Source: Deltaproteobacteria bacterium CG_4_9_14_3_um_filter_63_12 (lineage in GTDB: Bacteria > Myxococcota_A > Bradymonadia > UBA4248 > UM-FILTER-63-12). Taken from it: DNA of 33,102 bases. This document shows, piece after piece, positions 4,670 through 33,102 of the stretch (positions are counted from its first letter, which is position 1; the number at the start of each line of letters is the position of its first letter). Where the stretch lies: assembly GCA_002789955.1 (NCBI GenBank), contig PFUG01000301.1, positions 1 to 33,102 of the forward strand. The letters are read 5' to 3'. Both the position numbers and the translations under genes were made by a program. Below the pieces are notes generated by a model. That model was not told the DNA's origin and made no database searches. It saw only the letters and a list, made by a program, of their open reading frames with translations.

Positions 4670-5269
4670 TTGGAGAGCGTCTTGGAGAATCGTCAAACCG
4701 CAGCGCAGGAGCAGAGGGAGCGCGAGCGCTTCGCCGCGGCCGCGATCGCGTGCCGCGAGAAGCTCTGGGGCCATGCTCTGGGTCTGACGAGGAACTCGAC
4801 GGAGGCCGAGGATCTGCTCCAGGTGACGTATGTTCGGGCGTTCGAGCGGTGGTCACAGCTGCGGGACCTGTCCTGCATCTCGAGCTGGTTGACCCGCATG
4901 ATGCATCGGGCCTTCGTGGACCAATGCCGAAGGCGCACAAGGGAGAAGCTCGAGTCCTTGGAGCTCTTGGACTCTTGGATCGAGGCAGCGGAGCACTCCA
5001 CCCAACACACGCCCAGTGAGGGCGAGAGTGAGGCTCGCGACTCGGTCCAGAAGGCCCTCGGCGAACTCTCTTTGGTGTTGGCGCAGGCACTGACGCTGCG
5101 CGATGTCTGGGGATTTAGCTATGAGGAGATCGCCGAGCTCTTGGAGATTCCGGTGGGAACGGTCCGTTCGCGGATCGCCCGAGCTCGCGAGCAGATGATC
5201 GCGGTGTTGAAGGAACAAGGTGAACCCGCGACGGATGAACAGGTGCTGTTGTCGAGGAGGTCGTCATGA
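4670..5269 (+). CDS. RNA polymerase sigma factor, ECF (sigma-70 group IV)
   Basis: Up to 199 residues with the two expected domains. Sigma region 2 (about 25-95) contains EAEDLLQVTYVRAFERWSQL, then WLTRMMHRAFVDQCRRR, which contacts core polymerase and the -10 element. Region 4 (about 130-185) contains a helix-turn-helix, GFSYEEIAELLEIPVGTVRS, for the -35 element. It should redirect RNA polymerase when released from the membrane anti-sigma factor encoded next; the genes overlap by four bases (ATGA at 5266-5269). There is no ATG start. Candidates are TTG at 4670 and TTG at 4682, the latter six bases or so after GGAG (4672-4675); this affects only four residues. The upstream promoter suggests positive autoregulation. 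The inducing stress is not visible; the preceding lytic transglycosylase hints at envelope stress. Confidence 0.92.
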   Translation: MESVLENRQTAAQEQRERERFAAAAIACREKLWGHALGLTRNSTEAEDLLQVTYVRAFERWSQLRDLSCISSWLTRMMHRAFVDQCRRRTREKLESLELLDSWIEAAEHSTQHTPSEGESEARDSVQKALGELSLVLAQALTLRDVWGFSYEEIAELLEIPVGTVRSRIARAREQMIAVLKEQGEPATDEQVLLSRRSS

Positions 5270-6156
5270 GTTGCACCGAGTTCGAGACGCTCAGCGCCTA
5301 TGTCGACGGCGAAGCCGATGTGCAGCAGCACGAAGAAGCGGAGGCGCACCTTTTTGTCTGTGCTGAGTGTCGCGAGCGCTACCGTTCCATTCGGGCGCTG
5401 CGGAGCCTCTTGGCCGAGGACCCGCCGGCACAACTGCTGCCGCGCCGGCTCGAGCTTTCACTGGCGACGTTGATGGATCGCTTCGTCAACGAGTCGCCTA
5501 TGAACCTTCCGGTGCATCCCGGGACCGGGTTCGAAGGTGCGCCTATGCTCGCGAAGCCGTTCGAGCGGACGCACCGAGGGCTTTGGCTGCAAGCCTTGGT
5601 TGCGGCCTGTGTCGCGGTCGTCACGGTTTTGGGCATGGGTGTATTCGCGTTGCGCAGCGGTGGAGTGCCGACGCTCAGCATGGTCGACCATCGGGTCACC
5701 GGGCTGTCGAACCTGGGACACGCCGCGTTGTACGCCCATATGGAGCGGATCGCAGAGCCCAACCGCGGCGTCATCCCACAACGCGATGCGGCACAGCTCG
5801 AGCGCGAGCTTCGCGAGAGCCTCGAGTACAGGGTTCATCTGCCGAAGACGCTCTTGGGCGAACCCCGCTCTGCCGGCATCATGGAGCTGAGCTCGGAACC
5901 CGTCGCAGTGGCGGAGTACGAGTTCAACGGGGTGCCGGTGTCGATGTTCGCTCTGCCCCGTGTCGTGGCCGCGGAGTACATGAGTCTGCAGGTCGAGGAC
6001 GACCCGAACGCCTGCACGATGCAGGAGCTTCGCCAGTGCTTCACGGATGGCCTCGGGACGAGCTTGTGTATGACCTCAGACGCAGAGATGGTCTGGATCT
6101 GGGTCGCCCACCTGCCCAAGCTCTCCCTCGAGAAGCTGGTGCCCTACCCGCACTGA
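5266..6156 (+). CDS. Membrane anti-sigma factor with zinc-finger domain
   Basis: A 296-residue protein that starts at an ATG overlapping the sigma gene stop (ATGA). The N-terminal cytoplasmic part has the ZAS-type zinc motif HLFVCAEC (His28, Cys32, Cys35), which in this family holds the partner sigma factor. One membrane helix is at about 107-128 (LQALVAACVAVVTVLGMGV). Residues 130-296 would lie in the periplasm and could be the sensor; this part has no catalytic motif I recognise but contains three cysteines (in NACTMQELRQC and SLCM). It most likely sequesters the ECF factor until a periplasmic signal triggers release. The signal and any releasing protease are unknown. Confidence 0.88.
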   Translation: MSCTEFETLSAYVDGEADVQQHEEAEAHLFVCAECRERYRSIRALRSLLAEDPPAQLLPRRLELSLATLMDRFVNESPMNLPVHPGTGFEGAPMLAKPFERTHRGLWLQALVAACVAVVTVLGMGVFALRSGGVPTLSMVDHRVTGLSNLGHAALYAHMERIAEPNRGVIPQRDAAQLERELRESLEYRVHLPKTLLGEPRSAGIMELSSEPVAVAEYEFNGVPVSMFALPRVVAAEYMSLQVEDDPNACTMQELRQCFTDGLGTSLCMTSDAEMVWIWVAHLPKLSLEKLVPYPH

Positions 6157-6300
6157 GCCAACGCCATGCTGGGCGATCGCGGACACGCTCGCTTCGAGCC
6201 AGCGCGGCGCCGGGTAGCGCGCGAAACCTGATGCATTGTGGGGCGGGTTCCTGGTAAGAGAAGGGCTTCAACTCGTCACTGAGCTCGTGGATAGAACCCA

Positions 6301-6762
6301 ATGTCGAAGAGCACTGACCCCATCAAAGTCGTCGCGAAGAACCGCAAGGCCACTTTCGACTTTCACATCGGCGACCGCTACGAGGCGGGGTTGGTGTTGC
6401 TCGGCAGCGAGGTCAAGAGCGTTCGTGACGGGCGAGTGAGCCTGCAGGAGGCCTTCGCGAAGTTCAGCGACGACGGCGAGTTGTTCCTGATGAACTGCCA
6501 TATCGCCGAGTACCCCTGGGCTAACCGCAACAACCACGAGCCTCTTCGCCCGCGAAAGCTGTTGTTGAGCCGCAAAGAGCTCGGGAAGCTGTCACAGGCC
6601 ATCACGTTGGCAGGCGCCACCATCGTTCCCTTGTCGATGTACCTCAAGAATGGCTTGCTAAAGCTGGAGGTGGGAGTCGGGAAGGGCAAGAAGCTGTATG
6701 ACAAACGAGACGACCTGAAGAAGCGTTCGGCGCAACGGGACATCGATCGCGGACAGGAATAG
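6301..6762 (+). CDS. smpB: SsrA-binding protein SmpB
   Basis: A 153-residue SmpB of normal length. Family landmarks are the N-terminal VAKNRKATFDF, the core GLVLLGSEVKSVRDGRVSL, then YPWANRNNHEPLRPRKLLL, and the basic C-terminal tail GKGKKLYDKRDDLKKRSAQRD, which folds in the ribosomal decoding centre. SmpB brings tmRNA to stalled ribosomes so that the nascent chain is tagged for degradation and the ribosome is freed. The tmRNA gene (ssrA) is not in this window. The ribosome binding site before the ATG at 6301 is weak. The gene sits just upstream of a small cold-shock protein gene with its own leader element. Confidence 0.97.
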   Translation: MSKSTDPIKVVAKNRKATFDFHIGDRYEAGLVLLGSEVKSVRDGRVSLQEAFAKFSDDGELFLMNCHIAEYPWANRNNHEPLRPRKLLLSRKELGKLSQAITLAGATIVPLSMYLKNGLLKLEVGVGKGKKLYDKRDDLKKRSAQRDIDRGQE

Positions 6763-22603: not shown

Positions 22604-25591
22604 TCACTCGTCTTCGGTCGGCGCAAATCCGCGGCGCATGGTGTTCTCGCAGATGGCCCGTGGGTCCATGAACTGTTGCAGATAGTCGGGGCCGCCCGCC
22701 TTCGAGCCGACGCCGGAGCGCTTCGAGCCGCCGAAGGGATTGCGCCAAACCAGGGCGCCCGTGATGTTGCGGTTGATGTAGAGGTTGCCGACGCGGAACT
22801 CGTTGCGGGCGCGCTCGATGTGGGCGGGGCTGCGCGTAAAGATGCCGCCGGTCAGGGCGTATTGCGTGCCGTTGGCGATCTCGAGGGCGTGGTCGAAGTC
22901 CCTGGCCTTGATCACCGCCACGACGGGGCCGAAGATCTCGGTCTGGGCGATGGTCGAGTTGGGGTCCACGTCGACGAAGACGGTCGGCGGAACGTAACAA
23001 CCGCCGTCGTTCGGAATGGCGCCTTGCACCGCGACTCGGGCCCCTTCGGCCTTGCCTTGCTCGATGAGCGCCAGAATGTTGCGCTGTGCCGCGGCGTCGA
23101 TGACCGGACCGACCTTGTTGTGCGGCAGGTGGGCGGGGCCGACCGCCAAGGAGCGAACCGCCTCGGTCAGACGTGCAACGAAGGTGTCGTACTGCTCTTC
23201 CAAGACGATGGCTCGACTGCAGGCCGAGCATTTCTGCCCCTGGTAGGCGAACGCGCTCTTGACGACGCCCTGTACGGCTTCGTCGAGGTCGGCGTCGGAG
23301 TCCACGATGATGGCGTTTTTCCCGCCGAGCTCGCAGATGACGCGCTTGACGTAGAGCTGTCCGTCGCGGGTGATGGCGGCGTTCTTGTAGATGTCGAGCC
23401 CGACCTCCATGCTGCCCGTGAAAGCAATCAAGGAGATGTCGATGTGGTTGGTGAGCGCCGCCCCAACGACCGAGCCGCGGCCGGGCAAGAAGCTCAGGAC
23501 CCCCTTGGGCAGTCCGGCCTTTTCGAAGGCGTCGTAGAAGCCGGCGGCGATGAGGGGGCTCTGCCCCGCAGGCTTCATGATGACACAGTTGCCGGTCACC
23601 AGCGCCGCCGAGGCCATGCCGGTCATGATGGCCAGAGGGAAATTCCAGGGCGCGATGACCGCCGCGACCCCGCGGCCTTCGTAGGACAGGTGGCTCAACT
23701 CACCAGGCAGCTGCCCCAGGCGTTGTGGCGTCGCGAGGCGAATCATCTCGCGGCCATAATACTCGAGGAAGTCGATGGCCTCGCAGACGTCGCCGTCGGC
23801 CTCGCTCCATTGCTTGCCCACCTCGTAGCACTGCAGCGCCGAGAGCTCCCAACGGTTCTTTCGCAGCTCGGCAGCGGCGTCGAAGAGGACCTGCGCCCGA
23901 CGCAGCGGCGGCGTGTCCCGCCAGGCCGGATACGCCGCTTTCGCGGCGGCGATCGCCAGCTCCACGTGTTCGGCAGTGGCGCTGGCTGTGGTGCCGATGA
24001 TCTCGGAGGGATTCGCCGGGTTGGTGCTCTGGAGGTGCTCCGCCGTGTCGATGGCCTCGCCGCCGATCATGAGCTTGCGGTGTTTTCCGAGCCAGTGTTT
24101 CTTGGCAGTCTGAAGGCCGTCCGCGAAAAGGCTGCGGATGCGCTCGTGGGCGAAGTCGGCCAGGGGCTCGTTGAAGAACGGCTTCACGCCTGGGACGGTC
24201 GGCGCGCCCTTGAGCGGATCGGAGAGCTTGGTCCTGGGTGGCGTCGTGCGCACCCGCGGATCGGCCAGCAACTCTGCGACGCTCTGGTCGTCGGCGAAGC
24301 CTTGGCGCAGCCAGGACTCGTTGGAGGTGTTCTCGAGCAGCCGGCGAACGAGGTAGCCCATGCCGGGGACCAAGTCGCCGATGGGCACGTAGTCCCGCAA
24401 GCGGTAGCCCAGCTTGAGGACCGCATGTTTGAGGGGCTCGCCCATGCCGAAGAGCATCTGGAACTCGAAGTCGTCGCGGGTCAACTTTCGCTTTTGGGCG
24501 ACCGCCATGGTGTGGGCCAATGAGCGGACGTTGTGGGTGGCGATATTGGGGATCACCAGCTTGGTGTTCTCCAGCAGCATGGCGGTCAGGTTTTCGAAAT
24601 TCTCATCGCTGAGACGCTTGTCGGTATAGACGGGGATCGGCCAGGCGCGCTGTTGCGAGAGCAGGACCTCGTAGTCCCAATAGGCGCCCTTGACGAGGCG
24701 CACGGCCACCCGCCGCTTGGCTTTTTTGGCCCACTTGAGCAGCTCCTTGGTGTCGTTCTCGGAGTCCTTCAGGTAGGCCTGAATGACGATGCCGACCTGC
24801 GGCCCGTCTGCGAATTCCGGCTGCTCCATGATGCGCTTGAAGAGCTCGAGCGTCAGAGCCTTGGTGTGGTAGCTCTCGGCGTCGAGGTTGACGAGCGCTC
24901 CGTGTGCCTTGGCGGCGTGCAGGATCCTGCTGAGGCGCTCGCCGAAGACCTCGAGGGCGCCTTGGAAGTCGAGGGGATCGAATTGGCTGTAGAGCGCCGA
25001 GGGCTTCACGGAGACGTTGACCCGCGGGAAGTCGCCGCCCTCCATCGTGGCGTCGACCTTCCAAGCCGCGGTGGTCTCAGTGAGGGATTTGACGAGGTCG
25101 ACATACTGCTGGGTGTAGGCCTCGGCCTCTTGCTCGCTCACGCAGGCCTCGCCGAGCAGATCGACGGTGAAGCCGATGCCTTGCTCGCGCATCTCGGTGA
25201 GCTTGGGCAGCGCATCCGCGGCGTCGGCCCCGGCGATGAAGCGATAGGCCATCGAACGAATGTTCTTCTCGATTTGGCCAGCCGCGATCTTGGCGACTTT
25301 GCTGGTGGGGCTGACCGCGTTGAGACCCCATTGGAAGGTCTTGGGGAAGTCCTGACCCGGGCGGCAAAAGTACTCTTGAAGGTGACGGGCGATGTGCGAG
25401 GGGTCGTTGAGTGCCGGAAAGACGTCGACAAAACGGAACATCTCCGTCTTGAACGCCTCGTTGCGCATGCACCACTCCATGACTTGGCCTTGCCAAAAGT
25501 CCTTCGCAAAAATCGACGGCCGGCGACGTCCCATCGACTCGAAGATCCGCGCCGCGTACCGTTGAACCTCATCCTCGTACCCCAGACTCAT
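22604..25591 (-). CDS. putA: Bifunctional proline dehydrogenase / L-glutamate gamma-semialdehyde dehydrogenase
   Basis: A 995-residue minimal PutA, lacking the N-terminal DNA-binding domain of the E. coli protein. The FAD-dependent proline dehydrogenase half (1 to about 450) shows VNVSVKPSALYSQFDP, LVNLDAES, VRLVKGAYWDYE and the substrate-binding YLVRRLLEN. The NAD-dependent aldehyde dehydrogenase half (about 500-990) shows VAAVIAPWNFPLAI, CELGGKN with Glu754, and GQKCSACSR with catalytic Cys788, at the normal 34-residue spacing. Together they convert proline to glutamate, passing electrons to the membrane quinone pool and NADH. The ATG at 25591 follows AAGGAG. Regulation must come from elsewhere, since this form cannot act as its own repressor. 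Confidence 0.96.
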   Translation of the reverse strand: MSLGYEDEVQRYAARIFESMGRRRPSIFAKDFWQGQVMEWCMRNEAFKTEMFRFVDVFPALNDPSHIARHLQEYFCRPGQDFPKTFQWGLNAVSPTSKVAKIAAGQIEKNIRSMAYRFIAGADAADALPKLTEMREQGIGFTVDLLGEACVSEQEAEAYTQQYVDLVKSLTETTAAWKVDATMEGGDFPRVNVSVKPSALYSQFDPLDFQGALEVFGERLSRILHAAKAHGALVNLDAESYHTKALTLELFKRIMEQPEFADGPQVGIVIQAYLKDSENDTKELLKWAKKAKRRVAVRLVKGAYWDYEVLLSQQRAWPIPVYTDKRLSDENFENLTAMLLENTKLVIPNIATHNVRSLAHTMAVAQKRKLTRDDFEFQMLFGMGEPLKHAVLKLGYRLRDYVPIGDLVPGMGYLVRRLLENTSNESWLRQGFADDQSVAELLADPRVRTTPPRTKLSDPLKGAPTVPGVKPFFNEPLADFAHERIRSLFADGLQTAKKHWLGKHRKLMIGGEAIDTAEHLQSTNPANPSEIIGTTASATAEHVELAIAAAKAAYPAWRDTPPLRRAQVLFDAAAELRKNRWELSALQCYEVGKQWSEADGDVCEAIDFLEYYGREMIRLATPQRLGQLPGELSHLSYEGRGVAAVIAPWNFPLAIMTGMASAALVTGNCVIMKPAGQSPLIAAGFYDAFEKAGLPKGVLSFLPGRGSVVGAALTNHIDISLIAFTGSMEVGLDIYKNAAITRDGQLYVKRVICELGGKNAIIVDSDADLDEAVQGVVKSAFAYQGQKCSACSRAIVLEEQYDTFVARLTEAVRSLAVGPAHLPHNKVGPVIDAAAQRNILALIEQGKAEGARVAVQGAIPNDGGCYVPPTVFVDVDPNSTIAQTEIFGPVVAVIKARDFDHALEIANGTQYALTGGIFTRSPAHIERARNEFRVGNLYINRNITGALVWRNPFGGSKRSGVGSKAGGPDYLQQFMDPRAICENTMRRGFAPTEDE

Positions 25592-29040: not shown

Positions 29041-29210
29041 CCACTTCGCTCAAGAGCGCTCAAAATTGGGGCTCACGCGTCTTTGGGCAACGCAAACCTG
29101 GGGGATCCCCCTCTTCATCACCAGCCCTCGTTTCGAAGGGCCATCCCGTCCTTGCAAGATCAATGGTGTTCGCGGAGCCAAGTCCGCTTACACCCGAACG
29201 GAAGGGTGCA

Positions 29211-29717
29211 ATGGAACTGGAATTCTCGAGCCAAGCCGAGGAGCGATTTCAGGCCATCTTGAAACGCTACCCGAATACTCGGGCGGCCTTGTTGCCGACG
29301 CTCTTCGTCGCACAAGACGATTTTGGATATCTGTCTGTCGGTGCGATGGAGTACGTGGCGGGTCGTCTGGAGCTGCCGCCTTCGAAGGTGTTGAACGTTG
29401 GCACGTTCTACACCATGTACAACAAGCGTCCCGTCGGGAAGTACCATGTGCAGGTCTGCGCGAGCATCTCCTGTGCGCTCATGGGTGCTCATCGCCTGGT
29501 CCATCAATTGGAGCAGAAGCTGGGCATTCGGCTGGGAGAGACCACCGAAGATGGGCAATTCACGCTCAGCGAGGTGGAGTGTCTGGCAAGCTGCGGCACC
29601 GCGCCCATGCTCCAGATCAATGACGACTACCACGAGAACTTGAAGACTCCGGAGTCGATCGACGCAGTGTTCAAGCCACTGCTTGGCGACTCCAAGAAGC
29701 CCAACCAGGGCCGCTGA
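29211..29717 (+). CDS. nuoE: NADH-quinone oxidoreductase subunit E
   Basis: A 168-residue thioredoxin-like 2Fe-2S subunit of complex I, part of the peripheral NADH-oxidising arm with NuoF and NuoG. Cluster ligands are Cys83 and Cys88 (VCASISC) and Cys124 and Cys128 (CLASCGTAPM). The N-terminal helical part includes ALLPTLFVAQDDFGYLSVGAM and LNVGTFYTMYNKRPVGKY, as in the family. The ATG at 29211 has GGAAGGG upstream; an in-frame ATG at 29163 would add 16 residues without such a site. nuoF follows after 25 bases. Confidence 0.95.
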   Translation: MELEFSSQAEERFQAILKRYPNTRAALLPTLFVAQDDFGYLSVGAMEYVAGRLELPPSKVLNVGTFYTMYNKRPVGKYHVQVCASISCALMGAHRLVHQLEQKLGIRLGETTEDGQFTLSEVECLASCGTAPMLQINDDYHENLKTPESIDAVFKPLLGDSKKPNQGR

Positions 29718-29742
29718 ACCCTTTGGTTCCACAGAGGAAGGC

Positions 29743-31017
29743 ATGCGGAAGCTGTTCACCAAATGTCTAGACTTCGAAAAGCCTTGGGATATCGACGTCT
29801 ATATTTCGAAACAAGGGGGCTATCGCTCCCCGAAGAAGTCCTTGTCGATGGAGCCGAGCGCGATCATCGACGAGGTCAAGAAATCGAATTTACGAGGCCG
29901 AGGCGGTGCCGGGTTCCCAACGGGCCTGAAGTGGAGCTTTCTCCCCAAAGACTCTGAGGCCCCAAAGTACCTCGTGATCAACGCCGACGAGGGCGAGCCG
30001 GGAACTTTCAAGGACCGACTCATCCTCGAGTTCGACCCCCATCGCCTGCTCGAAGGCTGCATCACGGCCTGCTACACGCTTGGTGCGCACGTTTGCTACA
30101 TCTACATCCGCGGCGAGCTCAGGCAGTGCCATGCGCGAGTGGAAGAGGCGATCGCACAGGCCCGCAGCCGGGGCTTCTTGGGCGAGGGGATCTTCGGCAC
30201 GAAGTATGACCTCGAAATCTACGTCCACACCGGCGCGGGTGCGTACATCTGTGGGGAGGAGACTGCTCTGCTCGAGAGCCTCGAGGGCAAGGCTGGCAAA
30301 CCCCGCATGAAGCCCCCTTTCCCGGCGGTCGTCGGCCTCTTCGGCTGTCCAACGATCATCAACAACGTCGAGACCATCGCTTGTATCCCCACGATCATAA
30401 ACGATGGCGGCGAGGCCTTCGCGGCCGATGGCTGCGAGCGCAATGGCGGGATCAAGCTCTACGGCATCTCCGGCCACTCTGCACGGCCTGGGATGTACGA
30501 GGCGCCGCAAGGCATCTCGATGCGTGAGCTCATTTACGGCGACGATTTCGGTCGCGGCATCCGCGAGGGGCGAGAGCTCAAGGGGGTCATCCCCGGAGGC
30601 TCGAGCTGCCCATGCATCTTGCCGGCGGATATCGACGTCGCGATGGACTTCGATTCGCTCCGCAAGGTCAATTCGCTCTTTGGGACTGGCGGCCTCATCT
30701 TGATGGATGATCAGACCTGCATGGTCCGTGTGGCGGCGACTTTGGCGACGTTCTACCACATCGAGAGTTGTGGTCAGTGTACGCCATGTCGAGAAGGCAC
30801 CGGCTGGCTCAAGCGAGTCCTCGACAACATCGAAGCGGGCACAGGCACCCCAAAGGACCTCGCCCTCCTCAAGGATGTCTGCGACAACATCGCAGGCAAC
30901 ACTATCTGCCCTCACGGCGACGCCGCGTCGATGGCGGTCGGCTCGTATTTGCGGCACTTCATGCCCGAGTTCGAAGCCCACGTCGAGCGGGGTGGGTGTT
31001 GGTTCCCCGAATGGTAG
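29743..31017 (+). CDS. nuoF: NADH-quinone oxidoreductase subunit F
   Basis: A 424-residue flavoprotein subunit that binds NADH and FMN and passes electrons into the iron-sulfur chain. Visible motifs are GRGGAGFPTGLKW (52-64), NADEGEPGTFKDR, ICGEETALLESLEGK and the 4Fe-4S site ESCGQCTPCREG, with ligands Cys343, Cys346 and Cys349 plus Cys389 in NTICPHGDA. The length is normal. The ATG at 29743 follows AGAGGAAG. In most genomes nuoG comes next; here the next gene is nuoJ. Confidence 0.97.
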   Translation: MRKLFTKCLDFEKPWDIDVYISKQGGYRSPKKSLSMEPSAIIDEVKKSNLRGRGGAGFPTGLKWSFLPKDSEAPKYLVINADEGEPGTFKDRLILEFDPHRLLEGCITACYTLGAHVCYIYIRGELRQCHARVEEAIAQARSRGFLGEGIFGTKYDLEIYVHTGAGAYICGEETALLESLEGKAGKPRMKPPFPAVVGLFGCPTIINNVETIACIPTIINDGGEAFAADGCERNGGIKLYGISGHSARPGMYEAPQGISMRELIYGDDFGRGIREGRELKGVIPGGSSCPCILPADIDVAMDFDSLRKVNSLFGTGGLILMDDQTCMVRVAATLATFYHIESCGQCTPCREGTGWLKRVLDNIEAGTGTPKDLALLKDVCDNIAGNTICPHGDAASMAVGSYLRHFMPEFEAHVERGGCWFPEW

Positions 31018-31093
31018 TTCTGCGAGCGTAGAGCTTTGCTTTGCATCGCGCAGGTCTGGCTGCAGCTAAGAGCTGCTCACGAGGACGGTTCTG

Positions 31094-32503
31094 ATGAGCT
31101 TGGAACTGGTCACATTTGTCATGCTTTCGGCTGGGCTCTTGGGCACAGCGGTGATTGTACTCATCGCGCGCAACCCCATCCACAGCGCCATCTCGCTGAT
31201 CGCGAGTTTCTTCTGTCTGGCAGGCCTGTACCTGACTTTGAACGCCAGCTTCGTGGCGGTCATCCAGGTCTTGGTTTACGCTGGCGCGATCATGGTTCTG
31301 TTCCTCTTCGTAATCATGTTGCTGAACCTCTCCGAGAAAGATCTCGGAGACGCGAAGTGGAACTTCGGCAAGGTGATGGGCGTCGGTGCGGTCCTGATGC
31401 TGGGGTGCGTTCTCATCTGGGCCATCGTTGGCGCCAACAAGCGCTACCTCAACGAGCCGGCGGTCAATCGCTTCGGTGCGTTCGAGACTCTGCAAAACAC
31501 GGCTGCGAAGTACAGCTTCACCTCAGCCAACGAGCGCGGGGCGTATTTTGAGCAGCTGCTCCGTCTGCGGGTCATGGCCTCGCAGAAGGTCCGCCTCCAG
31601 ATGGGCACGGCCGAGGCCCAAGAGGACGCTTGCCGTGTGGTCTCGCGTTACGATCTGTCCATTAGCCCCAGCCTCTGTGTCGAGCGCTCCGTTCAGGAGT
31701 CGGCAAAGTCCTACGCCATCACCCAGCTGGTGAACCTCGACGAACAGCTGGCCTCGCTCGAGGCCGTGGTCGACGCTTCCAACGTTCCCGCCGCGTGGCG
31801 CGGTGACAACGCCGACCGTATCCCAGGCTCCGAGCCTACCCGCGAGGAGTGGGCGACGCTCCTGGTCGTCGAGATTGTCTACGCTAACCGGCTCGATCAG
31901 CTCGTCGATGTCGCCGCCAAGCCGGTCCTCAGCCCTGAAGAGCTCTCGGCGCTCGACGCGCTCGCCGTGCCTGCAAACCTCACTCAACCCTCGAACAACC
32001 TGCACGGCGCCGATCTGCGTGCGCTCGCGACGATGGAGCCCGGCGCTCGCTTCAAGGTCGCACAGCAGCGTTTCGACGAGCTCAATCGCCGTGTCGACCA
32101 GAAAGTGCGCGAGGCAGAAGGCTTCAAGACTTTCGTCGTGACCAGCGAGCGGCTCATCGCCGACTATCGCCGGGATGCTGCTGAGGTCCTGGGCAATCGA
32201 CGCTCAGGTAGAACCGATTTGGTGATGTCCAAGCTGATCGCGCTGCAGAGCCAGGCTCGTGGACGCTTCACCGCGGTGGAGCGCGACCTGGTTCGCGAGG
32301 TTCTCCGCTCCCTCAGCTCATCAGGCCCCCGGCACTTGGCAGCCATGAGCCAACCGGCCCTCTATAACAAGGACGACTTCGGCTCGGTGCGGGCCGTAGG
32401 TCGCCAATTCTTTACGACTTATCTACTTCCTTTCGAGGTCACCAGCGTGTTGCTGCTCGTTGGTATCCTCGGTGCGGTCGTGATCGCCAAACGGCGGATG
32501 TAA
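31094..32503 (+). CDS. nuoJ: NADH-quinone oxidoreductase subunit J with a ~300-residue insertion
   Basis: 469 residues, where NuoJ is normally about 165-185. Residues 1-115 give four membrane helices with the family core (NPIHSAISLIASFF, then FVAVIQVLVYAGAIMVLFLFVIMLL). Residues 430-469 give the usual last helix (FTTYLLPFEVTSVLLLVGILGAVVIAKRRM region). Between them lies a soluble, mostly helical and charged insert (about 117-428; DNA 31442-32377) with two cysteines (180 and 195). From the known NuoJ topology the fourth-to-fifth helix loop faces the periplasm, so the insert should too. The reading frame is continuous and codon use looks the same throughout, arguing against a frameshift or a recent insertion. 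NuoJ is part of the proton-pumping membrane arm. Confidence 0.9.
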   Translation: MSLELVTFVMLSAGLLGTAVIVLIARNPIHSAISLIASFFCLAGLYLTLNASFVAVIQVLVYAGAIMVLFLFVIMLLNLSEKDLGDAKWNFGKVMGVGAVLMLGCVLIWAIVGANKRYLNEPAVNRFGAFETLQNTAAKYSFTSANERGAYFEQLLRLRVMASQKVRLQMGTAEAQEDACRVVSRYDLSISPSLCVERSVQESAKSYAITQLVNLDEQLASLEAVVDASNVPAAWRGDNADRIPGSEPTREEWATLLVVEIVYANRLDQLVDVAAKPVLSPEELSALDALAVPANLTQPSNNLHGADLRALATMEPGARFKVAQQRFDELNRRVDQKVREAEGFKTFVVTSERLIADYRRDAAEVLGNRRSGRTDLVMSKLIALQSQARGRFTAVERDLVREVLRSLSSSGPRHLAAMSQPALYNKDDFGSVRAVGRQFFTTYLLPFEVTSVLLLVGILGAVVIAKRRM

Positions 32504-32522
32504 ACGAACGGAGAAGCTCGAG

Positions 32523-32834
32523 ATGGGCACTGAAATCCCCCTCAGTTACTACCTCATCGTGAGCGCGATGCTCTTCTCCATCGGAACCATCGCGGTCCTG
32601 GTGAGGCGAAACGCGCTGGTGATCTTCATGGGCGTCGAGATGATGCTGAACTCGGTGAACCTCACGTTCATTGCGTTCGCCAAATATCGAAGCGACCTCG
32701 ACGGACATTCCATCGCGCTCTTCGTCATGGCGGTTGCCGCCGCCGAAGCCGCGGTGGGACTGGCCATCGTGCTCAACCTGTTCCGGCATAAACGTTCGGT
32801 GAACGTCGACGACGCAACCTCTCTTCGTCATTGA
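32523..32834 (+). CDS. nuoK: NADH-quinone oxidoreductase subunit K
   Basis: A 103-residue membrane subunit of normal size with three hydrophobic helices. The second has the conserved Glu in GVEMMLNSVNLTF, part of the proton path, and the third has AVAAAEAAVGLAIVLNLFR with its own conserved Glu. It follows nuoJ by 19 bases and precedes nuoL, the usual J-K-L order. Confidence 0.96.
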   Translation: MGTEIPLSYYLIVSAMLFSIGTIAVLVRRNALVIFMGVEMMLNSVNLTFIAFAKYRSDLDGHSIALFVMAVAAAEAAVGLAIVLNLFRHKRSVNVDDATSLRH

Positions 32835-32898
32835 TGTTTTCATCGTTTCTGGGCAACTTACTCGGACTTTCACCGACTGAACCTAAAAAGCAAGAGCC

Positions 32899-33102
32899 AT
32901 GGAAAGCCTTACGGCCGCCAATTTCTACATCCTTGGCCTGATCCTCCTGCTGCCTCTGCTCGGGGCGCTATTCAACGGGCTGTTGGGCAACAGGTTGCCC
33001 AAGCAGGTCGTCTGGCTGGTCGCCTGTGGCACGGTTGGATTGGCTTTCGCCTTGGCGCTCTTCAGCGTCTCCACCATGTGGAACTCCTCGGAGCTCGAGA
33101 CT
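32899..33102 (+). CDS. nuoL: NADH-quinone oxidoreductase subunit L, N-terminal fragment
   Basis: The first 68 codons of a gene that runs off the right edge. The start reads MESLTAANFYILGLILLLPL, then LGALFNGLLGNRLPK and a second hydrophobic helix, as in the N-terminus of the NuoL antiporter-like subunit. Position directly after nuoK supports the call. The ribosome binding site is weak. The conserved proton-channel residues lie beyond the window. Confidence 0.85.
   Translation, partial: MESLTAANFYILGLILLLPLLGALFNGLLGNRLPKQVVWLVACGTVGLAFALALFSVSTMWNSSELET

Follow-up and report, generated by a model that had tools for sequence, protein, structure and literature searches.

Few membrane proteins are as conserved as the 14 core subunits of complex I. 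Escherichia coli NuoJ spans the membrane with five helices, its N-terminus outside and its C-terminus inside (PMC4604451), and the loop between TM4 and TM5 is therefore periplasmic. The corresponding TMH4-5 loop of mitochondrial ND6 contacts NDUFA1, which joins two proximal-pump subassemblies; NDUFA13, NDUFA3 and NDUFS5 likewise touch ND6 on the TMH4-5 loop side, and assembly is impaired when a few of the NDUFA1 residues that contact ND6 are swapped (PMC8762328). In E. coli, core subunits of complex I carry extensions and, in NuoG, a 94-residue insertion that stabilize the peripheral arm (PMC8357420).

The longest solved NuoJ/ND6 chain matched among PDB chains has 252 aa (mycobacterial complex I), and the NCBIfam NuoJ models that cover the whole protein have 172–282 positions. 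In 41 aligned NuoJs from several phyla the TM4-TM5 loop measured 15–32 residues with a median of 18, in a comparison drawn from 80 loci ranked by similarity, in which odd NuoJs may be under-sampled. The NuoJ described here has a TM4-TM5 loop of 318 residues (TM4 ends at about residue 113 and the TM5 region starts at about 432).

Genomic context and identity of the NuoJ protein

The window analysed (33,102 nucleotides) is the whole of one contig (C195) from the 8.29-Mb genome, in 689 contigs, of Deltaproteobacteria bacterium CG_4_9_14_3_um_filter_63_12. Near its end, nuoJ is placed between nuoF and nuoK, with nuoE and nuoF upstream and nuoK and nuoL downstream:

29163..29717, + strand: nuoE (BLAST to class relatives, same gene order)
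29743..31017, + strand: nuoF (BLAST to class relatives, 54–60% identity)
31094..32503, + strand: nuoJ, a single ATG-started ORF of 469 codons plus stop (PF00499, E=2.2e-40, two pieces)
31094..31441, + strand: nuoJ residues 1–116, TM1–TM4 with the TM3 family signature VYAGAIMVLFLFVIMLLN (alignment, model)
31442..32377, + strand: nuoJ insert, residues 117–428, 312 aa (in-frame coding, helical model, no known family)
32378..32500, + strand: nuoJ residues 429–469, FGSVRAVG...LPFEVTSVLLLVGILGAVVIAKRRM, lead-in helix and TM5 (second PF00499 piece, alignment)
32523..32834, + strand: nuoK, 103 aa, of ordinary length (ORF list, comparison with class relatives)
32899..33102, + strand: nuoL, first 68 codons, ended by the contig end (translation)

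The complex I genes of this genome are split over contigs: nuoEFJK and the start of nuoL lie on the window (29163–33102), contig C32 carries nuoM, nuoN and the end of nuoL, and nuoG-H-I are found on contig C206. The gene order nuoEFJKLMN is common to this genome and its class relatives. Elsewhere in the window, the ORF at 22604–25591 (− strand, 995 aa) looks, by eye only, like a bifunctional PutA-type proline dehydrogenase/aldehyde dehydrogenase.

By every defining test the 469-aa protein is NuoJ. PF00499 matched it with 138 bits against a cut-off of 33, in two pieces that both exceed the curated cut-off: profile positions 2–99 on residues 19–121 and positions 104–146 near residues 422–464, the second piece scoring 40 bits (E=1.7e-9). 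The TM3 signature VYxGAIMVLFLFVIM is present, with V61–L69 and M75 invariant in the alignment with 41 relatives, and hydropathy together with the structure model placed five membrane helices at residues 3–24, 28–48, 53–76, 91–113 and 444–468. The best of the NCBIfam NuoJ equivalogs (PRK06638 series) reached 110.6 bits, under the whole-protein cut-off of 174; the match is split by the insert. The protein thus shares with NuoJ, Nqo10 and ND6 the five helices, the TM3 signature, the position before nuoK and the C-terminal PFE-TM5 block, and is unlike them in the length of its TM4-TM5 loop. A sequence-only reading of the window had described a NuoJ with ordinary family sequence at both ends and about 300 extra residues, soluble and helical, between its last two helices; the PF00499 matches on both flanks and the loop comparison bear this out, and its coordinates were correct.

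Coding status and content of the insert

The insert runs for 312 codons with no stop, in frame with both flanks. The GC content at codon position 3 was 0.79 in the insert, 0.81 in the N-terminal part of nuoJ and 0.79 in nuoK, and the codon-adaptation index, trained on neighbouring genes, was 0.646 in frame, whereas the two remaining forward frames scored 0.40 and 0.37. The insert is thus coding in this frame, its codon use being equal to that of nuoJ and its neighbours. It contains 42 acidic and 41 basic residues and 13% alanine. Cys180 and Cys195, at the positions given in the sequence-only reading, are the only cysteines within the insert (spacing CX14C) and could form a disulfide. No internal repeats were found in it.

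Profile searches with residues 117–428 found no known family: there was no Pfam match over cut-off, no NCBIfam match and nothing better than E=0.26 in the PDB. Matches to DUF6189 and saposin-like families in Pfam and to eIF1A in the PDB were below thresholds and were set aside. An intein was ruled out, as NuoJ had no Hint match in Pfam and no HN[CST] motif. Across 379 Myxococcota genomes no homologue of the insert was found. Two weak matches among these genomes (E=2e-4 and 5e-4) were rejected as homologues: from their translations, one seems to be a sulfatase containing helical repeats and the other a protein of the TPR type, and what they share with the insert is an alanine-rich helical composition. 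Genomes of the same order gave nothing below E=0.03. A NuoJ loop of about 300 residues is without precedent among the structures and family models searched here, and such a variant was described neither in the PDB chains nor in the open-access papers searched (a description may exist elsewhere).

Topology and predicted structure

The published E. coli topology supports a periplasmic location of the insert, as the sequence-only reading had placed it. Residues 120–425 contain no further hydrophobic stretch; the most hydrophobic 19-residue window averages only 1.1, so that no added membrane helix is predicted. This model, built with 41 relatives, had a pLDDT of 86–91 at residues 1–70, 56–79 onward to residue 110 and near 75 in TM5. 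The insert was modelled as all-helical with a pLDDT of 40–84 (mostly 40–75) and includes a 52-residue helix (316–367); folded in isolation it gave a pLDDT of 42 and no usable model. In a Foldseek search against the PDB, in which the insert part of the model was of low confidence, the best 50 matches were all NuoJ/ND6 chains. The insert may fold as one compact domain; its fold prediction is weak.

The TM4-TM5 loop in related genomes

Families are labelled f1 (this genome), f2 (same order), f3–f7 (same class) and f11 (a distant Myxococcota family); f5 is probably Bradymonadaceae. The NuoJ family was detected in 39/57 genomes of the same class, two of which are complete (5,045,683 and 8,047,206 bases). 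It was undetected in all eight same-order f2 genomes (G001–G008) and in three f6 genomes (G025, G031 and G033), and complex I may have been lost in these.

Loop size was compared by counting the residues that separate the TM3 signature and the PFE motif of TM5; these were 79–89 in f3, f4 and most outgroups measured, 148–190 in f7, 156–230 in f5 and 383 in this genome. Families f5 and f7 (Bradymonadia) thus have the loop enlarged at the same site by roughly 65–150 residues, while the loop is short in f3, in f4 and almost throughout the rest of the phylum as sampled; about 40–50 extra residues were present in the same loop in f11 (L183, L184 and L185) and in one NuoJ of G191. The sequence-only reading had taken the addition to belong to one lineage. 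This held for the 300-residue version, which among the genomes sampled occurs only here, and did not hold for the site, which is expanded with unrelated sequence in f5 and f7. Enlargement at this one site is a tendency of the class, and the insert is its most extreme case.

The long-loop NuoJs of f5 and f7 resemble the present one in the loop that is enlarged and in the conserved lead-in to TM5 that flanks it, and differ from it in the size of the addition and in having no detectable similarity to this insert: the loops of f1, f5 and f7 were unrelated by sequence, with hhalign probabilities below 1% and HMM scores no better than those of shuffles. A likeness by eye between 'YLNEPAVNRF' after TM4 and 'NEPAINRDF' of the f5 loop was unsupported by hhalign and HMM and was discarded. 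Two f7 loops (L005 and L007) had weak, below-threshold matches to TGS/ThiS/S4 (beta-grasp-like) families, whereas the insert here is predicted to be helical. In f5, the motif PGL.AD..E.A....Y......W..G...P..GKY..F...PP is kept across 17 genomes, among which mean identity is 41% for the loop and 66% for TM1–4, and on these sequences the f5 loop appears to be under constraint.

In a tree of NuoF, NuoK and the NuoJ core, this genome lay outside f7, f4 and f5, with support of 91 for those three together; the position of short-loop f4 relative to f7 was weakly placed (support 37). The long loop may have been gained once, early, and then lost in f4, or it may have been gained several times.

Possible roles of the insert

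The reading that we favour, at a little under an even chance, is that the insert is a cis-encoded accessory domain with a structural role at the heel of complex I, on its periplasmic side. In this genuine NuoJ a segment of about 300 residues, predicted to be all-helical, has taken the place of the TM4-TM5 loop; it would fold onto the periplasmic face of the membrane-arm heel and brace NuoJ against NuoA, NuoH, NuoK and NuoN, and such bracing could help assembly and limit movement of TM4. We infer these contacts with other subunits and the stabilization of the enzyme, and regard them as the simplest reading because of the NDUFA1-type contacts at the ND6 loop and the extensions and insertion that E. 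coli has in its core subunits. As the ND6 loop docks NDUFA1, there is a functional precedent, though none in sequence, for extra protein here. The insert resembles NDUFA1, NDUFA13, NDUFA3, NDUFS5 and NDUFA8 in being extra mass at the same P-side heel location; the mitochondrial subunits, however, are separate proteins with no known sequence relation to it, whereas the insert forms part of NuoJ itself, and unlike the CX9C/CHCH accessory subunits it has no twin CX9C, only the single CX14C pair. With the NuoG G-loop of E. coli it shares the character of a lineage-specific insertion in a core subunit that is thought to stabilize assembly (PMC8357420), but the G-loop is three times smaller and sits on the cytoplasmic peripheral arm. 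Four points count against bracing. The insert has no homologue, so that its own constraint is not measurable; its predicted fold, with pLDDT mostly 40–75, is too weak to establish a compact domain; family f4, nested among the long-loop families, has no expansion, and an enlarged loop is therefore dispensable to complex I in this class; and the position of ND6-TMH4 differs so much from species to species that its functional importance has been doubted (PMC9977279), which makes a restraint on TM4 less likely. A broader form of the proposal, possible but rather doubtful, is that the TM4-TM5 loop is an insertion hotspot in Bradymonadia at which unrelated domains (helical here, beta-grasp-like in f7, small and conserved in f5) were captured in cis and would brace the complex as the mitochondrial subunits do, by parallel evolution.

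The strongest rival, to which we give something under one chance in three, is tolerated growth of an exposed, permissive loop that was enlarged by chance, has no dedicated function and drifts freely in sequence. The wide variation in length, the unrelated contents in f1, f5 and f7, the short loop kept by the nested family f4, the smaller expansions of about 50 residues elsewhere in the phylum (f11) and the interspecies variability of ND6 TMH4 (PMC9977279) all agree with such growth, but the f5 loop has retained a recognizable motif over 17 genomes, and 312 residues of mixed composition with long predicted helices resemble a folded domain more than low-complexity filler. An assembly artefact, that is foreign or misjoined sequence in a fragmented genome, is the least probable account of all. 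Family f1 is represented by this genome alone, and the assembly has 689 contigs and an estimated contamination of 2.8%; a chance misjoin would nevertheless rarely combine a perfect frame on both sides, 312 codons free of stops, the codon use of the neighbouring genes, a position exactly where relatives have the loop enlarged and the gene order nuoEFJKL common to the class.

Two further readings would give the insert a different function. In the first, the insert would provide a docking face through which complex I reaches a terminal oxidase, alternative complex III or a bc-type complex, either in a supercomplex or as a periplasmic partner in electron transfer. In its favour, genes for three catalytic subunits of haem-copper oxidases, four NrfD-type proteins and several proteins of the cytochrome b type are present in the genome, and one NrfD gene lies no more than 4 kb from an oxidase gene, the arrangement of alternative complex III operons. 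Yet no sequence evidence ties the insert to any partner, and such partners are generally common in bacteria with a short-loop NuoJ; we consider this reading improbable. The sequence-only reading had suggested supercomplex contacts and a periplasmic partner as possible roles, and also anchoring to the wall. It is very improbable that the insert acts as a sensor in the periplasm, in which a bundle of helices comparable to the four-helix ligand-binding modules of chemoreceptors would shift TM4 and thereby gate complex I. The all-helical prediction with one helix of 52 residues between two membrane helices would suit a sensor, as would the movement of TM4 of ND6 between states (PMC10036122); against it, Pfam gave no match to sensor families, the confidence of the model is too low for a fold call, and the 50 best structural matches found the NuoJ core alone.

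The observation is a variant of a known protein, NuoJ, that is new in its loop size and class context, and the TM4-TM5 loop site of this conserved enzyme seems now to be used for added domains. The 300-residue segment adjoins the coupling region at the heel of complex I. Loops of about 18, 85–170 and 320 residues form a natural series that would let mass at the heel be related to assembly, coupling and supercomplexes, and cultured long-loop relatives appear to exist, which makes the role testable.

Other enlarged parts of this complex I

NuoH (L195:1471–2790, contig C206) has 439 aa, seemingly with a pair of additional membrane helices separating TM6 from TM7; its counterparts in three other Myxococcota loci have 411–416 aa, and on these sequences a longer NuoH is probably a phylum trait. 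NuoN and NuoM (579 and 605 aa; L199:2994–4733 and 4786–6603, contig C32) have longer hydrophilic tails at the C-terminus than their E. coli counterparts, which measure 485 and 509 aa, and the class relatives are also long. The C-termini of NuoN and NuoM face the periplasm; if this is so here, the enlargement of this complex I extends to several parts of its P side.
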